Translations under genes and position numbers: made by a program | The notes under the pieces: model-generated | What the model saw: the letters and a program-made list of their open reading frames with translations, nothing else | Database searches by the model: none | What the model was told of the DNA's origin: nothing | In this document: in pieces, positions 11,217-22,571 of the stretch | How the letters are laid out: every line of letters starts with the position of its first letter | Numbering within the stretch: the stretch's first letter is position 1 | Source: Bdellovibrionales bacterium | GTDB lineage: Bacteria; Bdellovibrionota; Bdellovibrionia; Bdellovibrionales; UBA1609 | Direction of reading: 5' to 3' | Length of the DNA stretch: 64,000 nucleotides | Assembly: GCA_019637855.1 (NCBI GenBank) | Contig: JAHBUX010000006.1 | Location: 1-64,000 of the forward strand

Positions 11217-13037
11217 TTAGATGGGTGAGAGGAGTGTTGCCACTTCGGCCGCTTTGTCGCCGATTATGACGTGATAAATTCCGGGACGTATCTCTTGGGA
11301 TTCCCCTAGGTCGGCTGTGTTTAAACGGCTTGGATCCTTCAGCTCCACACGCACCCGTGTAAATGCGACGGCCTTTGAAGAGGAGATATTCTCCTTGCCA
11401 CCAAGAGCTTTCAACAAACGTTCGGCTAAAGTTTTGGCGTCGGATGCGGCCGCTTTAAGTCCGCTGGTGAGATCGGTCTTGGACTGAGGGGCCGCATAAT
11501 CTGTTGCCGCGGACGCGAAGACCAGAGGTGTTCCCGACGAGCTTGCAGCTTTGCCTGAGCTGCCGCTCATAAGGGCCGCAGGCGGAGCGGAGACGGTAGC
11601 GCCGCTTGCCATGTACTTTTCCATGTCCGTTTTTAAATTCTCAGATGCCGTACCGAAGATGGCCTGAACTCCGTCGGCCACCATCATCACACCGGCTGCA
11701 CCAAGCGCTTTTAAACGATCACTATCGACTTTGCTTTTGTCTGCGACTTGCACACGCAGGCGCGTGATGCAGGCATCTAGGTTGCGAATATTGTCGGCGC
11801 CACCAAAGGCAGCCACAAGGTCAGCGGCTTTCTGCGCGCCGGGTTCTCTGGCAGCGCTCGTGACACTCTCGCTCTCCACCTCGCGTCCTGGGGTGGCGAT
11901 TTTAAAGCGCTTGATGGCGAACGTGAAGACCGAATAGTACACGAGGGCCCAGATCGGACCGAGCACAAAGAGCCAAAGCGCGTGTTGGGATTTCGGGAAC
12001 AGCACTACGAAATCGATAAGGCCATGCGAGAAGGTCATCCCGTGCTTCACACCTAAGACGATGCACAACAAAAAGCTCGCTGCACACAAGAAGGCGTGCA
12101 CGAGATAAAGCAAGGGCGCCACAAACATGAATGAAAATTCGATAGGCTCCGTGATGCCGGTTAAAAAGGATGTCAACGCGGCGGAGATCATAATGCCGCC
12201 CACGCGCGCACGATGTTCGGGGCGCGCCGCGCGCCAAATGGCGATGGCTGCGGCCGGTAAGCCCCACATTTTAAACAGATAGCCACCGGCCAGATTGCCT
12301 GCGGTCGGATCGCCGCCGATGTAGCGGGCGATCTCACCGGTGAGGGTTTTGCCGCTGACCGGGTCCACATAGCTGCCGGTTTCGAAGAAGAACGGCACAT
12401 TCCAGATGTGATGTAGTCCGAAGGGAATCAAAAGACGCTCGACAAATCCGTAAAGCGTAAATGCAGCGGCCGGGTTTTCACTGGCGGCCCACAAAGAGAA
12501 ACTTTTGATCGCGCCACCGATGGGCGGCCACAGAACACTCAAAGCCACGCCAAGAACGATGGCCGCTCCGGCTGTGAGAATGGGAACGGAGCGCTTGCCG
12601 GCAAAAAATCCCAGGTAGGGAGGCAGTTGCAAGCGATAGTAGCGGTTAAATAAAAAACCCGCGATCATACCAATCGCGATCCCGCCAAAAACTCCGGTGT
12701 CGATGGACTCGATGCCCATCACGGGTTTGACGTCCGTGCCCATCAATTTCGACATTGCACCCATGGTGGCCAACATGACCACAAAGCCCACCACCGCGCT
12801 GAGGGCAGACACGCCGTCGTTGCCGGCCAGACCTAAAGCTGTACCGATCGCAAAGATAATAGGAAGATTGCTGAAGATCGCGCCGCCTGCTTGCGCCATG
12901 ATATCGCTGAGCGAGGCAGGAAGAAACGCGAAGTGCGCACTGCCGATGCCGAGCAGCAGTCCTGCCACCGGCAGCACCGCCACGGGCAGCATCAAGGCTT
13001 TACCGATCTTCTGCAGGAACGAGAACAGATTCTTCAT
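11217..13037 (-). CDS. ptsG: PTS glucose transporter PtsG, EIICB with an extra degenerate EIIB-like domain
   Basis: This membrane enzyme takes up glucose and releases it inside as glucose-6-phosphate. Residues 1-390 are the EIIC membrane domain and follow E. coli PtsG nearly segment by segment: [59 protein letters not shown], and [20 protein letters not shown] linker with TPGRE leads to EIIB with the phosphorylated cysteine in [11 protein letters not shown]. After an Ala/Ser-rich linker, residues of about 530-606 form a second EIIB-like domain ([24 protein letters not shown]) without that cysteine. The ATG has AAGGA 8 nt upstream and overlaps the 3' end of the IIA-HPr-EI gene by 38 nt. Total length is 606 residues versus 477 in E. 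coli. Confidence 0.92.
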
Positions 13038-15552
13038 CTACAAATCCTTGCGAGGGGTTCAAAACTTTCAGTTCACGGACTTCAGTGGCGGTCGCCGCAC
13101 CGACCGCGCGCTTGGCTAAAGATTCACATTCGCTGACGCGACATTCGCGCACGGTCGACTTCACCATGGGCACGCTGGGGATGCTAACGGACAGTTCATC
13201 CACTCCCAGTCCCAGTAAGATGGGGACGGCCTTCAGATCGCTGGCCAGGCCGCCACAGATGCCGACCCATTTGCCATGCGCATGCGCGGCTTGGATGGAC
13301 ATCTCGATGAGTTTCAGAACACTGGGGTGAAGGGCGTCGACCTGTTTGGCCAAACCCGTATGCCCGCGATCCATTGCCAGAGTGTACTGAGTCAAATCGT
13401 TGGTGCCGACCGAGAAGAAATCCACTTCGCGCGCGAAGGCCTCTGCGGTCAAGGCCACCGAGGGCACCTCCACCATAATACCCACTTGCACAGGTGCGGC
13501 CTTAAGCTTGGCGCGCTCTTCCTCGAGCATCTGCTTGGCTTTGCGGAACTCCTCGAGACTGGAGATCATGGGAAACATCACGCACAGTTTGCCGCGTGTG
13601 CGTACGCGCAAAATGGCGCGCAGTTGCTGGCGCAAAATTTCGGGGTGCAAAAAGCCCACGCGGATTCCACGTACGCCGAGAAACGGATTCTCTTCGGCTT
13701 CAATCGGCAAGTAACGCAACGGCTTATCGCCGCCCACGTCCAAGGTGCGAATGACCAAAACACGCTCGCCTAAAACATCGGCGATCTCTTGATACACGCG
13801 ATACTGCTCTTCTTCCGAAGGGGCGGTGTCGCGCTCTAAAAATAAAAATTCCGAGCGTAGGAGGCCGACACCGTCTGCTCCCATCTCGACCGCCTGCCTA
13901 GCATCGGCCACGCTGCCGATATTGGCCGCCACTTCAACACTGCGCCCGTCACGACTGACCGCCGGTTTGTGCGCCATAGTCAGCGCGGCTTCACGTTTAC
14001 TGGCGTGCTCCGCCTGCATCTTTTGCGCGGCCTGTTTGTCCGCGGCCTTCGGATTCAAACGCAACTCACCTAAGTCGCCATCGAGGATCACCTCGCTGCC
14101 TTCAGCGATCTCCAGAGCCTTAGGATCAATGCCGGCGATGGCTGGCAGGCCCAAAGAGCGAGCCAGGATGGCCACGTGCGAAGTGGCGCCACCGCTTGTG
14201 GTGCAAAACCCCAAAACTTTCGAGCGATCCAAAGCGACGGTTTCGCTGGGAGTGAGGTTTTCCGCAATCAAGATGGCATTGTCTGGGAGCGGGTTGGGAC
14301 GCGACTTACCGCCGCTCACAAGACGCAAGACACGACGACCCACATCGCGCAAATCGTTGGCGCGATTGGCCATCAGTTCGTTGTTCAAACTGGCCAAGCG
14401 ACTGGCGTGAGTCTCAATGGCCTTGTTCCAGGCGTAAGCGGCACTTTTACCTTTGGCCATCAGTTTGTCGGCTTCAAACACGATGTCAGGATCGGCCAAG
14501 AGTTCGCGATGCGCGGCGAAGATTGCCGCCTGCGTGCCGTCGGTCTTGGCTTTCACTTGACGCCCCAGCTCGCTCAACTCGTCCGCGGCCGCAGTAAGCG
14601 CGCGTTCTAAACGCGCCTTTTCTTCTTCCGCCGAGGCGCTCGCCTCTTCAGCAAAATCAAAGGTCTCACCACGCACTTGATGCACAAAACCGATGGCCAG
14701 CCCCGGCGAAACGCCAACGCCCCCTAGAGAGTCCGCGCTCGACGCGCGCCGCACGGAGGCTGCGGGTTTTGCAGTTGCGGCTTCAGGTTGCTCTTCAAGG
14801 TCATGCAGGAATTCAGTCAGCTCAGCAACCGCTTGCGCAGCGTCGGCACCGGCGGCCCGAAAACGCACGCGATCGCCATTCGCAATCTCTAAACCCATAA
14901 TGCCCACCACACTCTTGGCGTTGGCGGACTTTTCGCCTTTCAGCAATTCGACATTCGAACGATAGGACTTGGCCATCCCGACCAACAAGGCGGCGGGACG
15001 CGCGTGCAGTCCGGTGGGCAGTTCAATGCGGATCTCTTGAGATTCGGCCTGCCCATCGCCGCTCGCACTTTGAGCCGTGGCTTCGGCTTCACTGACGCTG
15101 ACAAGCACATCCATGCCCGCATCGGCAAAAGGAATGCGATTAAAATGCAGACGCTTTTCCGAGACCTCTGTCACCACCATGATGGTGATCAGACTTTTGG
15201 CTTTTTGCGCGATCAGATCGGCATCGAACTCGATCAAGGCTTGTCCGGCCAGCACGTAGTCGCCCAGTTTCACAACTGGCTTAAAGCCTTCGCCGTTCAA
15301 CTTCACCGTATCTAGACCAATATGCAGGAGTACCTGCACGCCACCGGTCTCGATGGTGATGGCGTGATGGGCACGGTGAAGTTGTACAACCTTGCCGTCG
15401 GCAGGCGAGAGCAGGACCTGAGTTGTGGGGTCCACGGCCACGCCAGGCCCCACGATCTTTTGCGCAAAAACCGGGTCGGGCACGCCCCCAATGGGGAGCA
15501 CTGGACCGCTGACCGGCGCCAGCAATTCAATGGCGGAGTTGGTAGAGTTCAA
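13000..15552 (-). CDS. Fused PTS phosphoryl-transfer protein: EIIA(Glc)-HPr-Enzyme I
   Basis: One 850-residue cytoplasmic protein holds all soluble steps of the glucose PTS. Residues 1-150 are an EIIA(Glc)/Crr domain ([20 protein letters not shown] with His62; [10 protein letters not shown] with the phosphorylated His77). Residues about 170-258 are HPr with GLHARPA and its histidine, plus [15 protein letters not shown]. Residues about 275-835 are Enzyme I, with the phospho-His in [22 protein letters not shown] and the PEP-binding barrel motifs [38 protein letters not shown] and GICGG. It takes phosphate from PEP and passes it to PtsG, whose gene overlaps the 3' end by 38 nt. The start is a TTG with GGAG 5 nt upstream. 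Confidence 0.93.
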
Positions 15553-15705
15553 CGGGGCTCCATCTGCGTTAGGGTACGGTCATGTTTATGTTGGCTATTT
15601 GTCGGTGGCAAGCCTGACGGCCAGAAAATATTTACTATTTTAGGACCGTTCCTAGTGCTCAACCGGAAGTATCATTTGTCCGAGGAGCTTTGGTTGGAGG
15701 ACACC

Positions 15706-16950
15706 GTGAAAGCACTCTTAATCTGCCTCACTTTCTGTTCCCTTAACGCTGGCGCTCAGGACTTTTCGGCAATGGAGATTCACGAGCGTCCTCTGAACGG
15801 TGGAATGGAAAGAGGGATTCCGGGTCTTATGCCCGATGCCCGTCCAAACAGCACAGTTCTGTATTACGTCGCTGTTTGGGGGCGCCCTGCTTTGGATCGC
15901 AATCTTCCCACCCATGTGATCGTGACGGGACACGGCGGAAAAGCCGGGACCTTGTTTCAAAATGTCTCTGCCGCGCGCGCGCAAAAATATGCCGAGGTAT
16001 TTCCTGATCATCAGGTGATGCTGATCACCGTCAACGAGTTGGATGACGACGACAACGCCCGCAAGCTTGAGAGCTGGGGCTTCACTATCCTGCATGGTCG
16101 CTCGAGCATGCTCAGCGTGAGTTACATGGTCGATGAGATGCGCGTGTTGAAAAAAGTGGCGTCCTTTGATCTTTACTCCCACGCCAATGAAGCCAATGGC
16201 GCTTCTCTCGACGCGGATTACTTGTCTAAAAACAGTCGCGAAGTGCGCGTGTTGAAAGGGCTCTTCACGGCCAATGCCTGGGCCGCCATTCATGGATGCA
16301 ATTCAGGATGGTCGGTGGCACCGGCGCTGGCGGATATGTGGGGCATTCCGGTTTCAGGCTCTTTTACTGGCACTCATTTTGAGCGTTTGCACACAGCGGG
16401 CGATTTTTATCCCTACGATTTAGCTTTGGCGCCTCCGGGGCCATTTGCTGTCGAAAACCCACTGTCTTACAACCAACCCATCAGTTGTGCGGGCGGCGGC
16501 TGTATGCGCATGCATCCAGATCCCTATCGCTATTGGGGTGAGTGGGGAGTGGCGACGCACGGTTTGGGCTTTATGCGTTTTTTCTGTGGACCGGTGCGCT
16601 CGCCGGATTGTGAACGTCGTATGGCGCTGTCTTTGGTGGGTTACATTGGCAAAACCAATTTGAACTTGCAGAGCACGGCGGCTGAGTTTACGTCAGTGCT
16701 GAAAGAGTATATGTGCCCGATCCATCGCGACCAGCCGGTGCGCAACGCTTGTGAACAGGGCATCGATCGCGCCTTGGCTTCGGGCGATATGCAGTACACG
16801 CCGTTCATCGGCAAATCTTCGGTGTGCAACGCGACTCTGTGCTGGGAACCGCAGGCGGGCGAAGTCTCGATTGCCTTTATGGAGGCCGTGCAGGCTTTCT
16901 TGCGCGGCATTCAGGCCATCACAGTGCCAAATGCCATAGCCATACGGTAA
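15706..16950 (+). CDS. Secreted protein of unknown family with a caspase-like His/Cys arrangement
   Basis: I place the start at the GTG at 15706, with GGAGG 5 nt upstream and a signal peptide (KALLICLTFCSLNAGAQ); the open frame extends 128 codons upstream, but that part is antisense to the PTS gene. The 414-residue protein is not one I recognise. A strand-like THVIVTGHGG segment is followed by a helix and QVMLITV, then FDLYSHANEANGASLD (His159) and AWAAIHGCNSGWSVAPALADMWGIPVSGSFTG (Cys198). A His after one strand and a Cys after the next, followed by a helix and a PVSG strand, is the layout of clan CD (caspase/CHAT-like) peptidases. The C-terminal half is cysteine-rich. Function as a protease is inference. 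It is divergent from the PTS genes. Confidence 0.75.
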   Translation: MKALLICLTFCSLNAGAQDFSAMEIHERPLNGGMERGIPGLMPDARPNSTVLYYVAVWGRPALDRNLPTHVIVTGHGGKAGTLFQNVSAARAQKYAEVFPDHQVMLITVNELDDDDNARKLESWGFTILHGRSSMLSVSYMVDEMRVLKKVASFDLYSHANEANGASLDADYLSKNSREVRVLKGLFTANAWAAIHGCNSGWSVAPALADMWGIPVSGSFTGTHFERLHTAGDFYPYDLALAPPGPFAVENPLSYNQPISCAGGGCMRMHPDPYRYWGEWGVATHGLGFMRFFCGPVRSPDCERRMALSLVGYIGKTNLNLQSTAAEFTSVLKEYMCPIHRDQPVRNACEQGIDRALASGDMQYTPFIGKSSVCNATLCWEPQAGEVSIAFMEAVQAFLRGIQAITVPNAIAIR

Positions 16951-17887: not shown

Positions 17888-19237
17888 TTATAAGGGCTTT
17901 TGCCAAATGCGAATGTAATCGACGTCCAAGGCTTGCGGGAAAGCGGTCGAGCCGTCAGGGCTGCCGGCCTCATCGCCCCCTACAGCCAGATTCAAGATCA
18001 GATAGGCTGGGTCACGCAGGATGAAGTCGCCGCGATATACGCCCACCAAAACGCCGTCGATGTAGTACGACATGGCGTCGGGCAACCATTGCAGGGTGTA
18101 GGTGTGGAAATCGGCACTGTAGTCGGTTTGCGCCGCGCTCATCGGTTGCGCATGTGCCACGCCGTTGTCGTCCATATAGGCATAGTTGAAGCGGGCCACA
18201 TTGGGTTGGTGCCCTAGTGATTCCAAGATATCGATCTGCGGAGGCGAGCGTTTGCCATTGGGCAAAAGCCAGAAGGCCGTGTGTAGCCCGCGCCCTTTTG
18301 GCAACTTCATGCGCGCTTCCACAACGCCGAAAGTGAAAGTGAACTTGTTGCGCGTGGTGACGGCGCCCGAGGCGTAGTTCATGCCCTCTCCCCAAGTGGT
18401 GGTGGTGGCGCGACGCTCAGCCAACAGACGCATGGTGCCGGTACCGACTTGAACGTTTTCAGGGCGGTAGGCTTGCAGTTCATTATTGATGGTGTAGTTG
18501 AACCAGTAACCCACGTTCCAAATGCCGGCGTTCAATGAGGCGGCAGTGAACTCCTCGTTCATCACCAGGGTCCAACCATTGCCGGGACTGAGCGGCTGAT
18601 AGCCATTTGGATTGGCCACAGCCGAACGCATCGGCGGATTGACCGGCGCTTCAACCATGGTCAGTGTGAAGTCATCTGCATCCACCGGAGTGGCCGAGGC
18701 GGAATCCTTGTATACGTAGATTTTGGCGCTGGAGACGGAGAGCGGAACTTGAAAGCGCACACTGTATTCAGTGAAAGCGGTCGTGTTGATACGCACGCGC
18801 TGATCACCCATGGTGGCGTTGCCGGCGTCGAAATAGCGAACGCCCACATAGGCGGAATCGCTGGTTGAAGCGACGCGCGCGAACACTTTCAAAACATAAG
18901 TGCCACCGGTTTGGAGTCGATAGATGACCTCTTGGCCGCGACCACCGGTGCCAGTGATACGCACGGCTTTATTGCCCGAGTTTTTGCCAACGGTGGTGAT
19001 CGTGCTCGAACCCCAATCTTCCCAACCGGCAAAATCCGCTTCAAAGCCGCTGTTATCTACGAGATTGGCGCGGGGAGCTGCGCTAGGGCCACCGCCGCCT
19101 CCGCCATAAACGCAGCAATACCCTGAACTCGAATTGAATTCGCTGGCAGGGCGAATCTTGCCCTGAAAACCTTGGCCGCAACCTATAAGAGCCGCGGAGG
19201 CTAAAACAAAGATGAACCAAACAGATGCATGGGACAT
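17888..19237 (-). CDS. GH16-family lipoprotein with CBM4/9-like domain, nucleophile Glu replaced by Gln
   Basis: A 449-residue protein. The start is the ATG at 19237 (GGAGG 9 nt upstream), which gives a lipoprotein signal ending ALIGC (Cys20); the open frame reaches 19342 but the extra residues are not signal-like. After a Gly-rich linker, residues 56-196 resemble a CBM4/9 sugar-binding jelly roll (NLVDNSGFEADFAGWEDW). Residues 218-449 are a GH16 laminarinase/lichenase-type domain: MNEEF, NNELQAYRPENV, GVVEARMKLPKGRGLHTAFWLLP and NLAVGGDEAG. The catalytic ExDxxE motif reads QIDILES (Q334, D336, E339), read from a clear CAG codon. Loss of the nucleophile suggests a sugar-binding role or a changed mechanism. 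It likely sits on the outer or inner membrane. Confidence 0.88.
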   Translation of the reverse strand: MSHASVWFIFVLASAALIGCGQGFQGKIRPASEFNSSSGYCCVYGGGGGGPSAAPRANLVDNSGFEADFAGWEDWGSSTITTVGKNSGNKAVRITGTGGRGQEVIYRLQTGGTYVLKVFARVASTSDSAYVGVRYFDAGNATMGDQRVRINTTAFTEYSVRFQVPLSVSSAKIYVYKDSASATPVDADDFTLTMVEAPVNPPMRSAVANPNGYQPLSPGNGWTLVMNEEFTAASLNAGIWNVGYWFNYTINNELQAYRPENVQVGTGTMRLLAERRATTTTWGEGMNYASGAVTTRNKFTFTFGVVEARMKLPKGRGLHTAFWLLPNGKRSPPQIDILESLGHQPNVARFNYAYMDDNGVAHAQPMSAAQTDYSADFHTYTLQWLPDAMSYYIDGVLVGVYRGDFILRDPAYLILNLAVGGDEAGSPDGSTAFPQALDVDYIRIWQKPL

Positions 19238-19496
19238 AGCGGTAAGCCTCCAGAAGTACCTATTATCAATACCGAGGCCAGGAAGCGGCTTAGGTAGTCC
19301 CCGCCGTTTTATGAGAGTGTGTACGCGACATTCGCTGATCAATCATTGTTCATAAGGCGATACTTCTCGCTTCGGGGCAGGCGGCGGCAAACCTAGGGGC
19401 TTGCCGCACTATCGACGATAGGCGTAACGATAACAAAACTGAGGGGAATAGACAAAACAGGCCAAACTCACTTAAACCATATCAATTTGATACAGT

Positions 19497-21467
19497 TCAA
19501 AAACTAGCCTGTAAGCCGATCACGAACGAGCGGCCCATCAAAGGGGCGACATCTTTCTTCAAGGACACGTGATTGCGCGCCTGCGCATCGAAGACGTTGT
19601 TCACACGGCCGAAGGCACTGAAGGCGGCAAAGGGTACCTCAGCTCCGAGATTCACCAGAGTGTAGGCGGCCGTTGCCTCCTCACCGGGTGCGGTGTCACT
19701 TTGTCTTGCGGCATGCTGCACTTGCACGTCGGCTTGCCAAGCGTCGCGCTTATAAACCATTCCAATAGAGGCGCGCACGGGGCTGATGCGCGGAAGCGAG
19801 TGGCCCGAGCGCCGATCGATCCCACGCAGCGAATCCAATTTCAATTCCATATTCCATTGCCCACCTAGCGCCATTCCGAGCGAGCTTTCGTCTTCGAACT
19901 CGAACCCATACAGACGGGCATCGGTAGCGCGAAAGGCATAAATATCAAATCCGCTATCCATATCCGGCGCTTCGCCAGTGGGATTGAGCGTGATGTAGTC
20001 GCGATAGTCCTGCACAAATACACTCACGCGCTTGTGCCCTGCGCTGCTATCGCCACGCAGGGAGAGCTCTAGAGATTGTCCGCGCTCTTTGCGTAGGGAC
20101 GAATCACCCCGTTCGAAAATCCCAGTGGCCGCATGCGGACCATTGGCAAAAAGCTCCTGGTAGTTGGGCGCGCGCTCTGTGTAGGCGCCGGTCAGAACCA
20201 AGGCATATTGCGGGTGAAACTGGTAGAGGAGGCCGACAGAAGCGCTATTGCCGGAGAACGTTTTGTCTTGGCCCGCGCCGAACGTTGGATCGCTCTTTGA
20301 GCGGACAGCCGCGTTCTCGGTGCGCAGAGCGAAGGATGGACGCCATGTTCCCTCGGCGCGCTCTTCAAACAAGAAGGCCGAGTAGGATTCATTGCGCGTG
20401 CTGGGCAAAAACGACTCTTCGCCTTTGGCAGAAAAGGTAAAGGCGGTGCCTTGGGCGCCGAAGGTGCCTGTGAAGCCAGCCGTCGGTCGGTGGCGCAATT
20501 CGACGCGTGTCTCGTTGCCGTCGTTCTTGAAAGTGGTGCCGAGTTCCGCACCTTCCATTTCGTCATGTTTGTAGTGCGAGTACGAATTTTTAGCGCGTAC
20601 CGATTTGACCCAACCGTCGGGGCGCACTTCGCCGCTCACATCCCAGCGCTGCTGCAAGAGATTGATATGCACGTCGCGCTCGGGTGGAGATCCGTAGCTG
20701 GTCTCGAAGTTTGTAAATGAAGTCCCCACGAAGCCTTTGTCCCACACGTAAGATCCGCCCAGGCTCTGAGTGCCGGTGCGATTGAACGTGTTATACACGC
20801 GCCCCTTTGTCTCGGGATCGAGTGGTTCTCGGGTGCGCTCTTCTTGTGTGCGCGCATAGCCGGGTACATGATAATCATCGGCGGCGCGTACGGCACCGTC
20901 AGCATGAAGGACCCAATTTGAACCTATCGGTGCGTCCACGCTGGCGCCCAAAGAGCGGCCGCCTTCGTTGCTGCTGCCGCGCACTTCCGCGCGCCCGGTG
21001 AAACTGTCGGGACGTTTTTCTGGGATGCGATTGGTGACGATATTCACGGCGCCTCCGGCCACACTGCTGCCGTAGAGCAAGGCTCCCGCGCCGCGCACGA
21101 TCTCAAAACGCTCTACCACCAAGGGATCGACGGCCACAGCATGATCGGGACTTGCGGCCGAGGCGTCGAGCACGCCGGTGCCGTTTTGCAAGATGCGGAT
21201 GCGGTCACCCTCTTGGCCGCGAATCACCGGACGACTGGCATTGGGGCCAAATTGACTCGAGCTCACTCCGGCTTCGTGAGAGAGAGTTTCGCCCACGGTG
21301 GATTGCCGTTGACGTTGCAGTTTTTTACCTCCGATGACAGTGCTCGCCGGCGCGCCGCTAAAGTCACCAGCGCCGGCGCCGAGGACGGAGATTTCCGGGG
21401 TTGTGAGTTCTTGCGCGTGAGCATTGGAGACGAGAAAAGAGCCGGTCAAGAGTAGGGACAAAAACAT
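19497..21467 (-). CDS. TonB-dependent outer-membrane receptor, ZnuD-like
   Basis: A 656-residue outer-membrane transporter with a signal peptide (SNAHAQ), a TonB box region near TPEISVLG, a plug domain (VGETLSHEAGVSSSQFGPNASRPVIRGQEGDRIRILQNG, SPDHAVAVDPLVVERFEIVRGAGALLYGSSVAGGAVNIV) and a 22-strand barrel ending in LQASF with the usual terminal Phe. The SRPVIRGQ and SPDHAVAVDP segments are close to those of ZnuD zinc receptors. It would import a metal or metal complex using the TonB encoded nearby. It is divergent from a Fur-family regulator, and a 29-bp palindrome lies between them, so zinc- or iron-dependent repression is likely. The ATG has GAAAGG upstream. Confidence 0.9.
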   Translation of the reverse strand: MFLSLLLTGSFLVSNAHAQELTTPEISVLGAGAGDFSGAPASTVIGGKKLQRQRQSTVGETLSHEAGVSSSQFGPNASRPVIRGQEGDRIRILQNGTGVLDASAASPDHAVAVDPLVVERFEIVRGAGALLYGSSVAGGAVNIVTNRIPEKRPDSFTGRAEVRGSSNEGGRSLGASVDAPIGSNWVLHADGAVRAADDYHVPGYARTQEERTREPLDPETKGRVYNTFNRTGTQSLGGSYVWDKGFVGTSFTNFETSYGSPPERDVHINLLQQRWDVSGEVRPDGWVKSVRAKNSYSHYKHDEMEGAELGTTFKNDGNETRVELRHRPTAGFTGTFGAQGTAFTFSAKGEESFLPSTRNESYSAFLFEERAEGTWRPSFALRTENAAVRSKSDPTFGAGQDKTFSGNSASVGLLYQFHPQYALVLTGAYTERAPNYQELFANGPHAATGIFERGDSSLRKERGQSLELSLRGDSSAGHKRVSVFVQDYRDYITLNPTGEAPDMDSGFDIYAFRATDARLYGFEFEDESSLGMALGGQWNMELKLDSLRGIDRRSGHSLPRISPVRASIGMVYKRDAWQADVQVQHAARQSDTAPGEEATAAYTLVNLGAEVPFAAFSAFGRVNNVFDAQARNHVSLKKDVAPLMGRSFVIGLQASF

Positions 21468-21509
21468 AACGATAGGCCTTTCGTGAGAGGCTCTAACTAC
21501 CGCACTGAT

Positions 21510-21538
21510 TTATTATTGCAAGTCACTTGCATTAATAA
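21510..21538. promoter_or_regulatory. 29-bp palindrome, probable Fur/Zur operator
   Basis: The core TGCAAGT-C-ACTTGCA (21517-21531) is a perfect 7-1-7 inverted repeat, and the arms continue as TTATTA and TAATAA with only one mismatched pair (21516/21532). The 7-1-7 symmetry is that of Fur-family operators. It lies 43 nt upstream of the receptor start and 27 nt upstream of the regulator start, so it can control both divergent genes. Confidence 0.8.
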
Positions 21539-21564
21539 TGCAGTGCTGTCATAAGGGTTATCCT

Positions 21565-21993
21565 ATGAATGAGGAAAAAGCTCTTTCTCTTCTTTCTGAC
21601 TCCGGTTTGCGCATCACGCGCCCGCGGCGTTTGTTGCTGAAAGCCGTTTTGGCCATGCAGACACACTTTTCCGCCGGCGATGTTTTGGCGGCGCTGACCA
21701 AGATGGAGAAAGGCCATGGTTTTGACCTGGTCACTCTGTACCGCAATCTGCCGGTGTTTGAAGAGGTCGGTATCATCTGCCGCGCCGATTTCTCTGACGA
21801 TATGATTCGCTACACACTGGCGCATGCCGGCCATGATCATCACCATCATCACATCGTATGCCGCTCGTGTCAGAAGGTGGCGCCGGTGGACTTGTGTTTG
21901 CTAGAGGTGCAACAAAAGGCGCTGGTGAAAATGGGTTTCAAAGATGTACGTCATCGTCTTGAATTTTCGGGCATCTGCCGGGCCTGCTCTTAG
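21565..21993 (+). CDS. Fur-family metal regulator, probably Zur-like
   Basis: A 142-residue transcription repressor from the ATG at 21565 (AAGGG upstream); the frame is open from 21538 but that would run into the operator. The N-terminal winged helix (LRITRPRRLLLKAVL, DLVTLYRNLPVFEEVGII) binds DNA. The dimerisation domain has the metal sites: HAGHDHHHHHIVCRSC with a run of histidines, then VDLCLLE, and a second cysteine pair in GICRAC for structural zinc. It is divergent from a ZnuD-like receptor and shares the palindrome at 21510-21538, so it likely represses that gene and itself when its metal is plentiful. Zinc is the best guess from the receptor; iron or manganese cannot be excluded. Confidence 0.9.
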   Translation: MNEEKALSLLSDSGLRITRPRRLLLKAVLAMQTHFSAGDVLAALTKMEKGHGFDLVTLYRNLPVFEEVGIICRADFSDDMIRYTLAHAGHDHHHHHIVCRSCQKVAPVDLCLLEVQQKALVKMGFKDVRHRLEFSGICRACS

Positions 21994-22571
21994 GGGCGTT
22001 GCAAGCGAAAGCTCAAAGGCACGTGCACATGCAGAGGCACGGGGATCTCGAGGGGCACTTCTGGAAAACGACCGATCGCGGCCACGGTCTTTAAAGCCGC
22101 TTCGTTTAAAGCGCTGAATGGGCAGGGTTGCTCAAGCTTGACGTCGGCCACACTGCCGTCGCGATTTAAACTAACGCCAATCACGACCTTGCCTTCCTCT
22201 TCTCGGCGCAAAGACTCGCGAGGATAGACTTTGTTGCGATCAATCAATCGAGCGACGTTTTGCAAGAATGCGTCGGTCGCGAGAGCTATGGCCGCCGGAT
22301 CACCGGCAAAAGAACTCGCCGGTTTTTGCTCAGCGGGTTCTGTCGCTTTTTCATCGGGCTGCGCGGCCCGCGGCGGCGCCATTCGTGGCGATGTATGCCG
22401 GTGCGCGGCTGCTTCCGTAGCGTGCGAGATCGGCTGGATAAAATCCACGTCGACCACGCCCTTTACGGCCGGCGCCAGTTGGTTAGACGTGTAGGTGAGC
22501 CAGAAAACAACGCCGGCGTGAACAAGCACGCTGGCGGCAATAAAAAGGGAAAGTTTGGAAAACGGCTGCAT
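21990..22571 (-). CDS. tonB: TonB energy transducer
   Basis: A 193-residue inner-membrane protein. An N-terminal signal anchor (LSLFIAASVLVHAGVVFWLTY) with the family's SxxxH pattern as SVLVH is followed by a periplasmic spacer rich in Pro, Ala and Glu and a C-terminal TonB domain (YPRESLRREEEGKVVIGVSLNRDGSVADVKLEQPCPFSALNEAALKTV). It would pass the proton-motive force from ExbB/ExbD to outer-membrane receptors, most obviously the ZnuD-like one at 19.5-21.5 kb. It is the last gene of a run with a TIGR02147 regulator and a lipoprotein (13-nt gap) and overlaps the 3' end of the Fur-family gene by 4 nt. No exbBD genes are in this window. Confidence 0.88.
   Translation of the reverse strand: MQPFSKLSLFIAASVLVHAGVVFWLTYTSNQLAPAVKGVVDVDFIQPISHATEAAAHRHTSPRMAPPRAAQPDEKATEPAEQKPASSFAGDPAAIALATDAFLQNVARLIDRNKVYPRESLRREEEGKVVIGVSLNRDGSVADVKLEQPCPFSALNEAALKTVAAIGRFPEVPLEIPVPLHVHVPLSFRLQRP

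Follow-up and report, generated by a model that had tools for sequence, protein, structure and literature searches.

A probable exported cysteine endopeptidase family with a clan CD fold in Bdellovibrionota, distantly related to DUF4347 and Tce1

An exported protein with a candidate His/Cys dyad

The gene at positions 15706 to 16950 (+ strand) of the window, i.e., the whole 64,000-nucleotide stretch of Bdellovibrionales DNA analyzed here, raises the question of whether its product is a secreted protein with the fold and the His/Cys dyad of caspases and their relatives, as an earlier note had proposed. The analysis largely supports that interpretation. The product is probably an exported cysteine endopeptidase of the caspase/hemoglobinase (clan CD) fold, which belongs to a Bdellovibrionota family and is a distant cousin of DUF4347/Tce1. 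Bacteria related to the predator Bdellovibrio probably export, with this family, an unrecognized kind of cysteine protease.

The gene was read from the sequence as an open reading frame of 414 amino acids plus a stop codon, for which homologs exist. It starts with GTG, behind a ribosome-binding-site-like GGAGG (15696..15700, +) that was read directly from the sequence. The frame is open further upstream, where it overlaps the start of a divergent PTS gene; the GTG was taken as the start because it is favored by both the signal peptide and the ribosome-binding site. Residues 1 to 17 (VKALLICLTFCSLNAGA; 15706..15756, +) form a predicted Sec-type signal peptide, which was judged by eye and ends before the residues QD (i.e., the break falls between VKALLICLTFCSLNAGA and QD). 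The leaders of the relatives are similarly hydrophobic. The suggestion that the protein is secreted agrees with the Sec-like signal peptide, and we infer that the 414-aa protein sits outside the cytoplasm. The GC content of the gene (about 0.53 to 0.56) is close to that of the flanking DNA.

Two parts can be distinguished in the protein: a putative catalytic domain at about residues 49 to 312 (15850..16641, +), delimited by the AlphaFold model and by structure alignments over model residues 65 to 312, and a cysteine-rich C-terminal half (residues 240 to 414; 16423..16947, +), of which the last part (about residues 313 to 414) is helical.

Predicted fold and structural neighbors

The AlphaFold model, which was built from 19 family members, has a mean pLDDT of 83 and a pTM of 0.83. 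Its elements are, in order, strand 69-74, helix 83-98, strand 103-109, helix 114-123, strand 126-132, helix 138-145, strand 151-157 (followed by His159), helix 178-186, strand 187-196 (followed by Cys198), helix 204-212, and strand 216-219. In the VIA-align ranking, the top 39 rows are all clan CD structures, and the first other fold, a prephenate dehydrogenase, appears at a Z score of 7.6. The matches include (i) the legumain family structure 6l4y_B (Z, 10.5; 210 residues; rmsd, 4.3), (ii) SAVED-CHAT 8tl0_B (Z, 9.5), (iii) Tce1 9qpe_G (Z, 9.3; 151 residues; rmsd, 3.1), (iv) GPI transamidase (Z, 8.8), (v) the C11 structure 6n9j_A (Z, 8.5), and (vi) procaspase-6 8f96_A (Z, 8.0). The top rows of a Foldseek search were C11 and legumain structures, with weak E values (best, 1.7e-3) and low TM-scores (0.25 to 0.30 of the query). 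C25 and C80 are absent among the best 50 structural rows listed, an absence that excludes nothing. The model and the structural ranking agree on an alpha/beta fold like that of known clan CD structures, and the caspase-like fold that had been anticipated for this protein was recovered, since its best solved matches (legumain, CHAT, Tce1, C11, and caspases) are clan CD proteins.

Legumain (C13), which has the highest structural Z score and aligns with model residues 66 to 346, likewise carries its dyad at the ends of two neighboring strands; however, no Pfam C13 match was found in 18 family members, the identity is 8 to 14%, and no sequence relation was found. The clostripain-like C11 proteins of Bacteroidales, represented by the top Foldseek row (6mzo) and by 6n9j, are also secreted bacterial enzymes, but they differ in that no sequence profile match was obtained with the 18 members and in their internal cleavage, of which the exported family gives no sign. 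Caspases and metacaspases (C14) and CHAT proteins have the fold class in common with the exported family (SAVED-CHAT and procaspase-6, as ranked above).

The clan CD fold is also found in proteins that are not necessarily general proteases. The protein might process itself, work as a transpeptidase or ligase, or act on one specific partner protein, a reading that we consider unlikely, although less so than the other alternatives. It is consistent with the presence of plant asparaginyl ligases and legumain zymogens among the best structural neighbors and with the surroundings of the gene in one genus (g72), in which a 1011-aa exported protein without a Pfam match and a subtilase (S8) are encoded downstream of the homolog and represent possible partners. 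This arrangement is conserved in 10 loci (e.g., L036, 7336-12986, and nine others of the same genus). Against it, the g72 neighborhood is not common to the window or to other genera, and no sequence feature singles out transpeptidation. We do not claim an operon partner for the window gene, as the conserved downstream pair is confined to that one genus and is absent from the window.

Conservation of His159 and Cys198

As read in the translation, His159 lies in FDLYSHANEANG and Cys198 in AWAAIHGCNSGWSVAPALADMWGIPVSG, each after a strand, as the earlier note had stated. Strand 151-157 and His159, the predicted general base (codon 16180-16182), span 16156..16182 (+); strand 187-196 and the motif HGCNSG with Cys198, the predicted nucleophile (codon 16297-16299), span 16264..16308 (+). 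The alignment of the model to the caspase-2 large subunit (3r7b_A) stops with model residue 199 opposite chain residue 321, so that Cys198 would fall on residue 320, the catalytic cysteine of caspase-2. In the model, the strand ends at residues 157 and 196 are two residues ahead of His159 and Cys198, respectively, so that a His and then a Cys follow the C termini of two successive strands of the core; a review of clan CD locates the dyad where strands beta3 and beta4 end (PMC4357240). Fold alignment and sequence register together suggest that the two residues face each other.

Both residues are present in every homolog aligned (30 and then 38 sequences, with about 25 to 40% identity; 38/38 for each), and His159 is the sole invariant histidine among the 12 in the protein across the 38 aligned homologs. 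Judged from these alignments, the His/Cys pattern is more than chance. The family motifs, [SGAT]-H-[SNA] and G-C-N-x-G, are kept throughout the alignment of 30 sequences. After His159, 29 of the 30 members have Ser, Asn, or Ala and one has His; Gly never occurs there. Most clan CD families have HG at the catalytic His; the exported family differs from them, and from DUF4347, in having Ser, Asn, or Ala at this position. The partial nature of the motif match that had been pointed out earlier (SHAN and GCN versus HG and AC) reflects the family's own pattern, which is kept throughout the alignment.

The remaining conserved cysteines, all in the C-terminal half, behave differently from Cys198. Cys261 and Cys266 are both absent in one member of the 38 aligned, Cys374 and Cys379 are both absent in another single member, and an extra cysteine pair, which the window protein does not have, is gone together in exactly 7 members; Cys294, Cys302, Cys337, and Cys349 are constant in all aligned members. 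Because the pairs, where they vary, vanish jointly, as partners would, these cysteines (i.e., 261/266, 294/302, 337/349, and 374/379) likely form disulfides, and such a pattern would fit an exported protein. Cys198 has no joint-loss partner in the same 38 sequences, as is expected of a nucleophile. A model of the C-terminal half by itself was weak (pLDDT, 71), and none of its structural matches exceeded a Z score of 2.0.

The same observations bear on a less probable alternative, in which the protein has no catalytic activity and serves in structure or binding, with the caspase-like fold maintained and with His159 and Cys198 retained for structure. The non-Gly residue after the His and the fact that no activity is known would agree with a dead protein. 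We nevertheless regard it as quite improbable, given that His159 and Cys198 are conserved in all 38 sequences at this level of divergence, that the DUF4347-like relatives keep both the His and the Cys, and that joint-loss pairing leaves Cys198 without a disulfide partner.

DUF4347 and Tce1 as the nearest known kin

The 414-aa protein has no match in Pfam (PF14252 included), NCBIfam, or PDB sequences, even at an E value of 10. In a Pfam scan of 18 family members, 4 matched DUF4347 (PF14252) weakly (best E value, 0.0012), and the members of the exported family, with at most 22.8 bits, do not reach the gathering cut-off of PF14252 (24.6 bits). A profile-profile comparison with hhalign of the exported family and DUF4347-like proteins yielded an E value of 9e-5, with His159 placed on the His of the HG motif and Cys198 on the DUF4347 Cys; the score was 44.9, whereas none of 200 column-shuffled controls exceeded 18.3 and the reversed profile reached 26.9. 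The HG motif and the Cys are kept in all 13 aligned DUF4347-like proteins of the phylum. The only PDB match of the DUF4347 profile is 9qpe_G (E value, 0.0011), which is Tce1 (PA0256). Tce1 of Pseudomonas aeruginosa (PDB 9qpe) is a putative cysteine protease effector with the dyad His186/Cys240, which is loaded into Hcp3 of a type VI secretion system and bears an extension at its N terminus (Nat Microbiol 2026, PMC13323088); the presence of a DUF4347 domain in PA0256 is given in an earlier paper (PMC8262886). As the sequence profile and the fold comparison agree on the same relative, DUF4347/Tce1 represents the nearest known kin.

Kinship to C14, C25, C80, or CHAT, the families that the earlier note had named for a profile search, was not recovered: Pfam Peptidase_C14 matched neither the window protein (E ≤ 10) nor 18 relatives (E ≤ 1), and the Pfam CHAT, C25, C80, C11, and C13 families likewise had no match in the window protein or the 18 relatives. 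On the evidence of these profiles, the exported family is a distant cousin of DUF4347/Tce1 and not a member of C14, C25, C80, or CHAT. The idea of a new secreted branch of clan CD that has a His/Cys dyad was right in kind, with respect to the fold and the invariant dyad, and is refined in that the nearest kin are DUF4347 (PF14252) and Tce1. Of 192 genomes of the phylum, 15 contain ordinary C14 proteins, which are distinct from the exported family.

With DUF4347/Tce1, the exported family has in common the fold class and a His and a Cys in register by hhalign. The differences are the SHA or SHS of the exported family in place of HG at the catalytic His, the signal peptide, cysteine-rich C-terminal half, and lack of a PF14252 match of the window protein, and, on the part of Tce1, the N-terminal extension and the transport as type VI cargo in Hcp3. 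That the protein has an unrelated alpha/beta fold and a dyad by chance is most improbable, since the low TM-scores and middling Z scores (a Z score below 8 may reflect no more than a shared arrangement) stand against a ranking in which 39 clan CD rows precede prephenate dehydrogenase (Z, 7.6) and against sequence profiles that independently indicate DUF4347, whose solved member Tce1 is itself in that ranking.

A second, diverse set of DUF4347-like proteins was observed in Bdellovibrionota (L032, L033, L054 to L061, L064, L067, L070, L073, and L074), many of which start with N-terminal leader sequences.

Distribution and origin of the family

Homologs of the exported protein were identified in 71 of 369 Bdellovibrionota genomes and 26 of 182 genera, with E values down to 1e-78 and one to four copies per homolog-bearing genome. 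The gene is absent from the three other genomes of the genus to which the window belongs, and in the family, only one additional genome contains a match, which is partial. A search of genome contigs with the single sequence yielded no homolog, and a search with an alignment of close relatives yielded 18 loci, all from Bdellovibrionota. All publicly named loci are from Bacteriovoracaceae, Halobacteriovoraceae, Bacteriovoracia, or Bdellovibrionaceae/Bdellovibrio. No description of the family was found in the open-access literature; it is uncharacterized and unannotated and is covered by no domain library.

The viral contigs, plasmids, and phages searched contained zero homologs, and a phage or plasmid origin is thus unsupported; PHROGs matches were scattered and single and were disregarded. 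In a phylogeny built from 35 proteins, the window protein pairs, with a support of 96/87, with L005, which is from a different family within that order; the branches of both are long. A recent transfer from Bacteriovoracaceae had been considered in view of the genus-mates without the gene and the best BLAST matches, which are in Bacteriovoracaceae. It is not preferred, because the window protein groups with the same-order L005 on long branches, and ancient paralogs with patchy loss explain the distribution at least as well as transfer.

Proposed mechanism and role

As an exported cysteine endopeptidase, the protein would be directed out of the cytoplasm through Sec by its signal peptide and would be stabilized there by the disulfides of its C-terminal half. 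His159, which lies where one strand ends, would activate Cys198, which lies where the next one ends, and the Cys198 thiolate would attack the peptide bond. We infer that the protein is catalytically active, that the reaction is proteolysis, and that extracellular or prey proteins are digested or processed by it. Prey or scavenged proteins appear to be a plausible target in light of the export, the several paralogs, and a distribution restricted to a predator-rich phylum. The more specific proposal, i.e., that this is a lineage-specific exported caspase-like protease family used by Bdellovibrionota predators on prey or scavenged proteins and expanded to several paralogs per genome, is tentative, and we hold it to be possible rather than probable.

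If the proteins are active, an unannotated secreted family, so far found in one predator-rich phylum only, joins clan CD, and the newly recognized DUF4347/Tce1 lineage of putative proteases would extend from type VI cargo to exported enzymes. The family also supplies one to four candidate enzymes per genome for the breakdown of prey proteins in Bdellovibrio-like bacteria.

Nearby loci in the window

Several other loci of the window were identified near the gene. A PTS sugar uptake pair (11217-15552, -), comprising EIIC-EIIB and a fused EIIA-HPr-enzyme I, was recognized by Pfam. A glycoside hydrolase of family 16 with CBM_4_9 is encoded at 17888-19342 (-) and is probably an exported lipoprotein, as it contains the lipobox-like LIGCGQG. 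The region at 19497-22571 resembles a locus for the uptake of a metal, perhaps zinc, and encodes a TonB-dependent receptor (-), a regulator of the Fur family that contains the His-rich stretch HDHHHHH (+), and a TonB-like protein (-).
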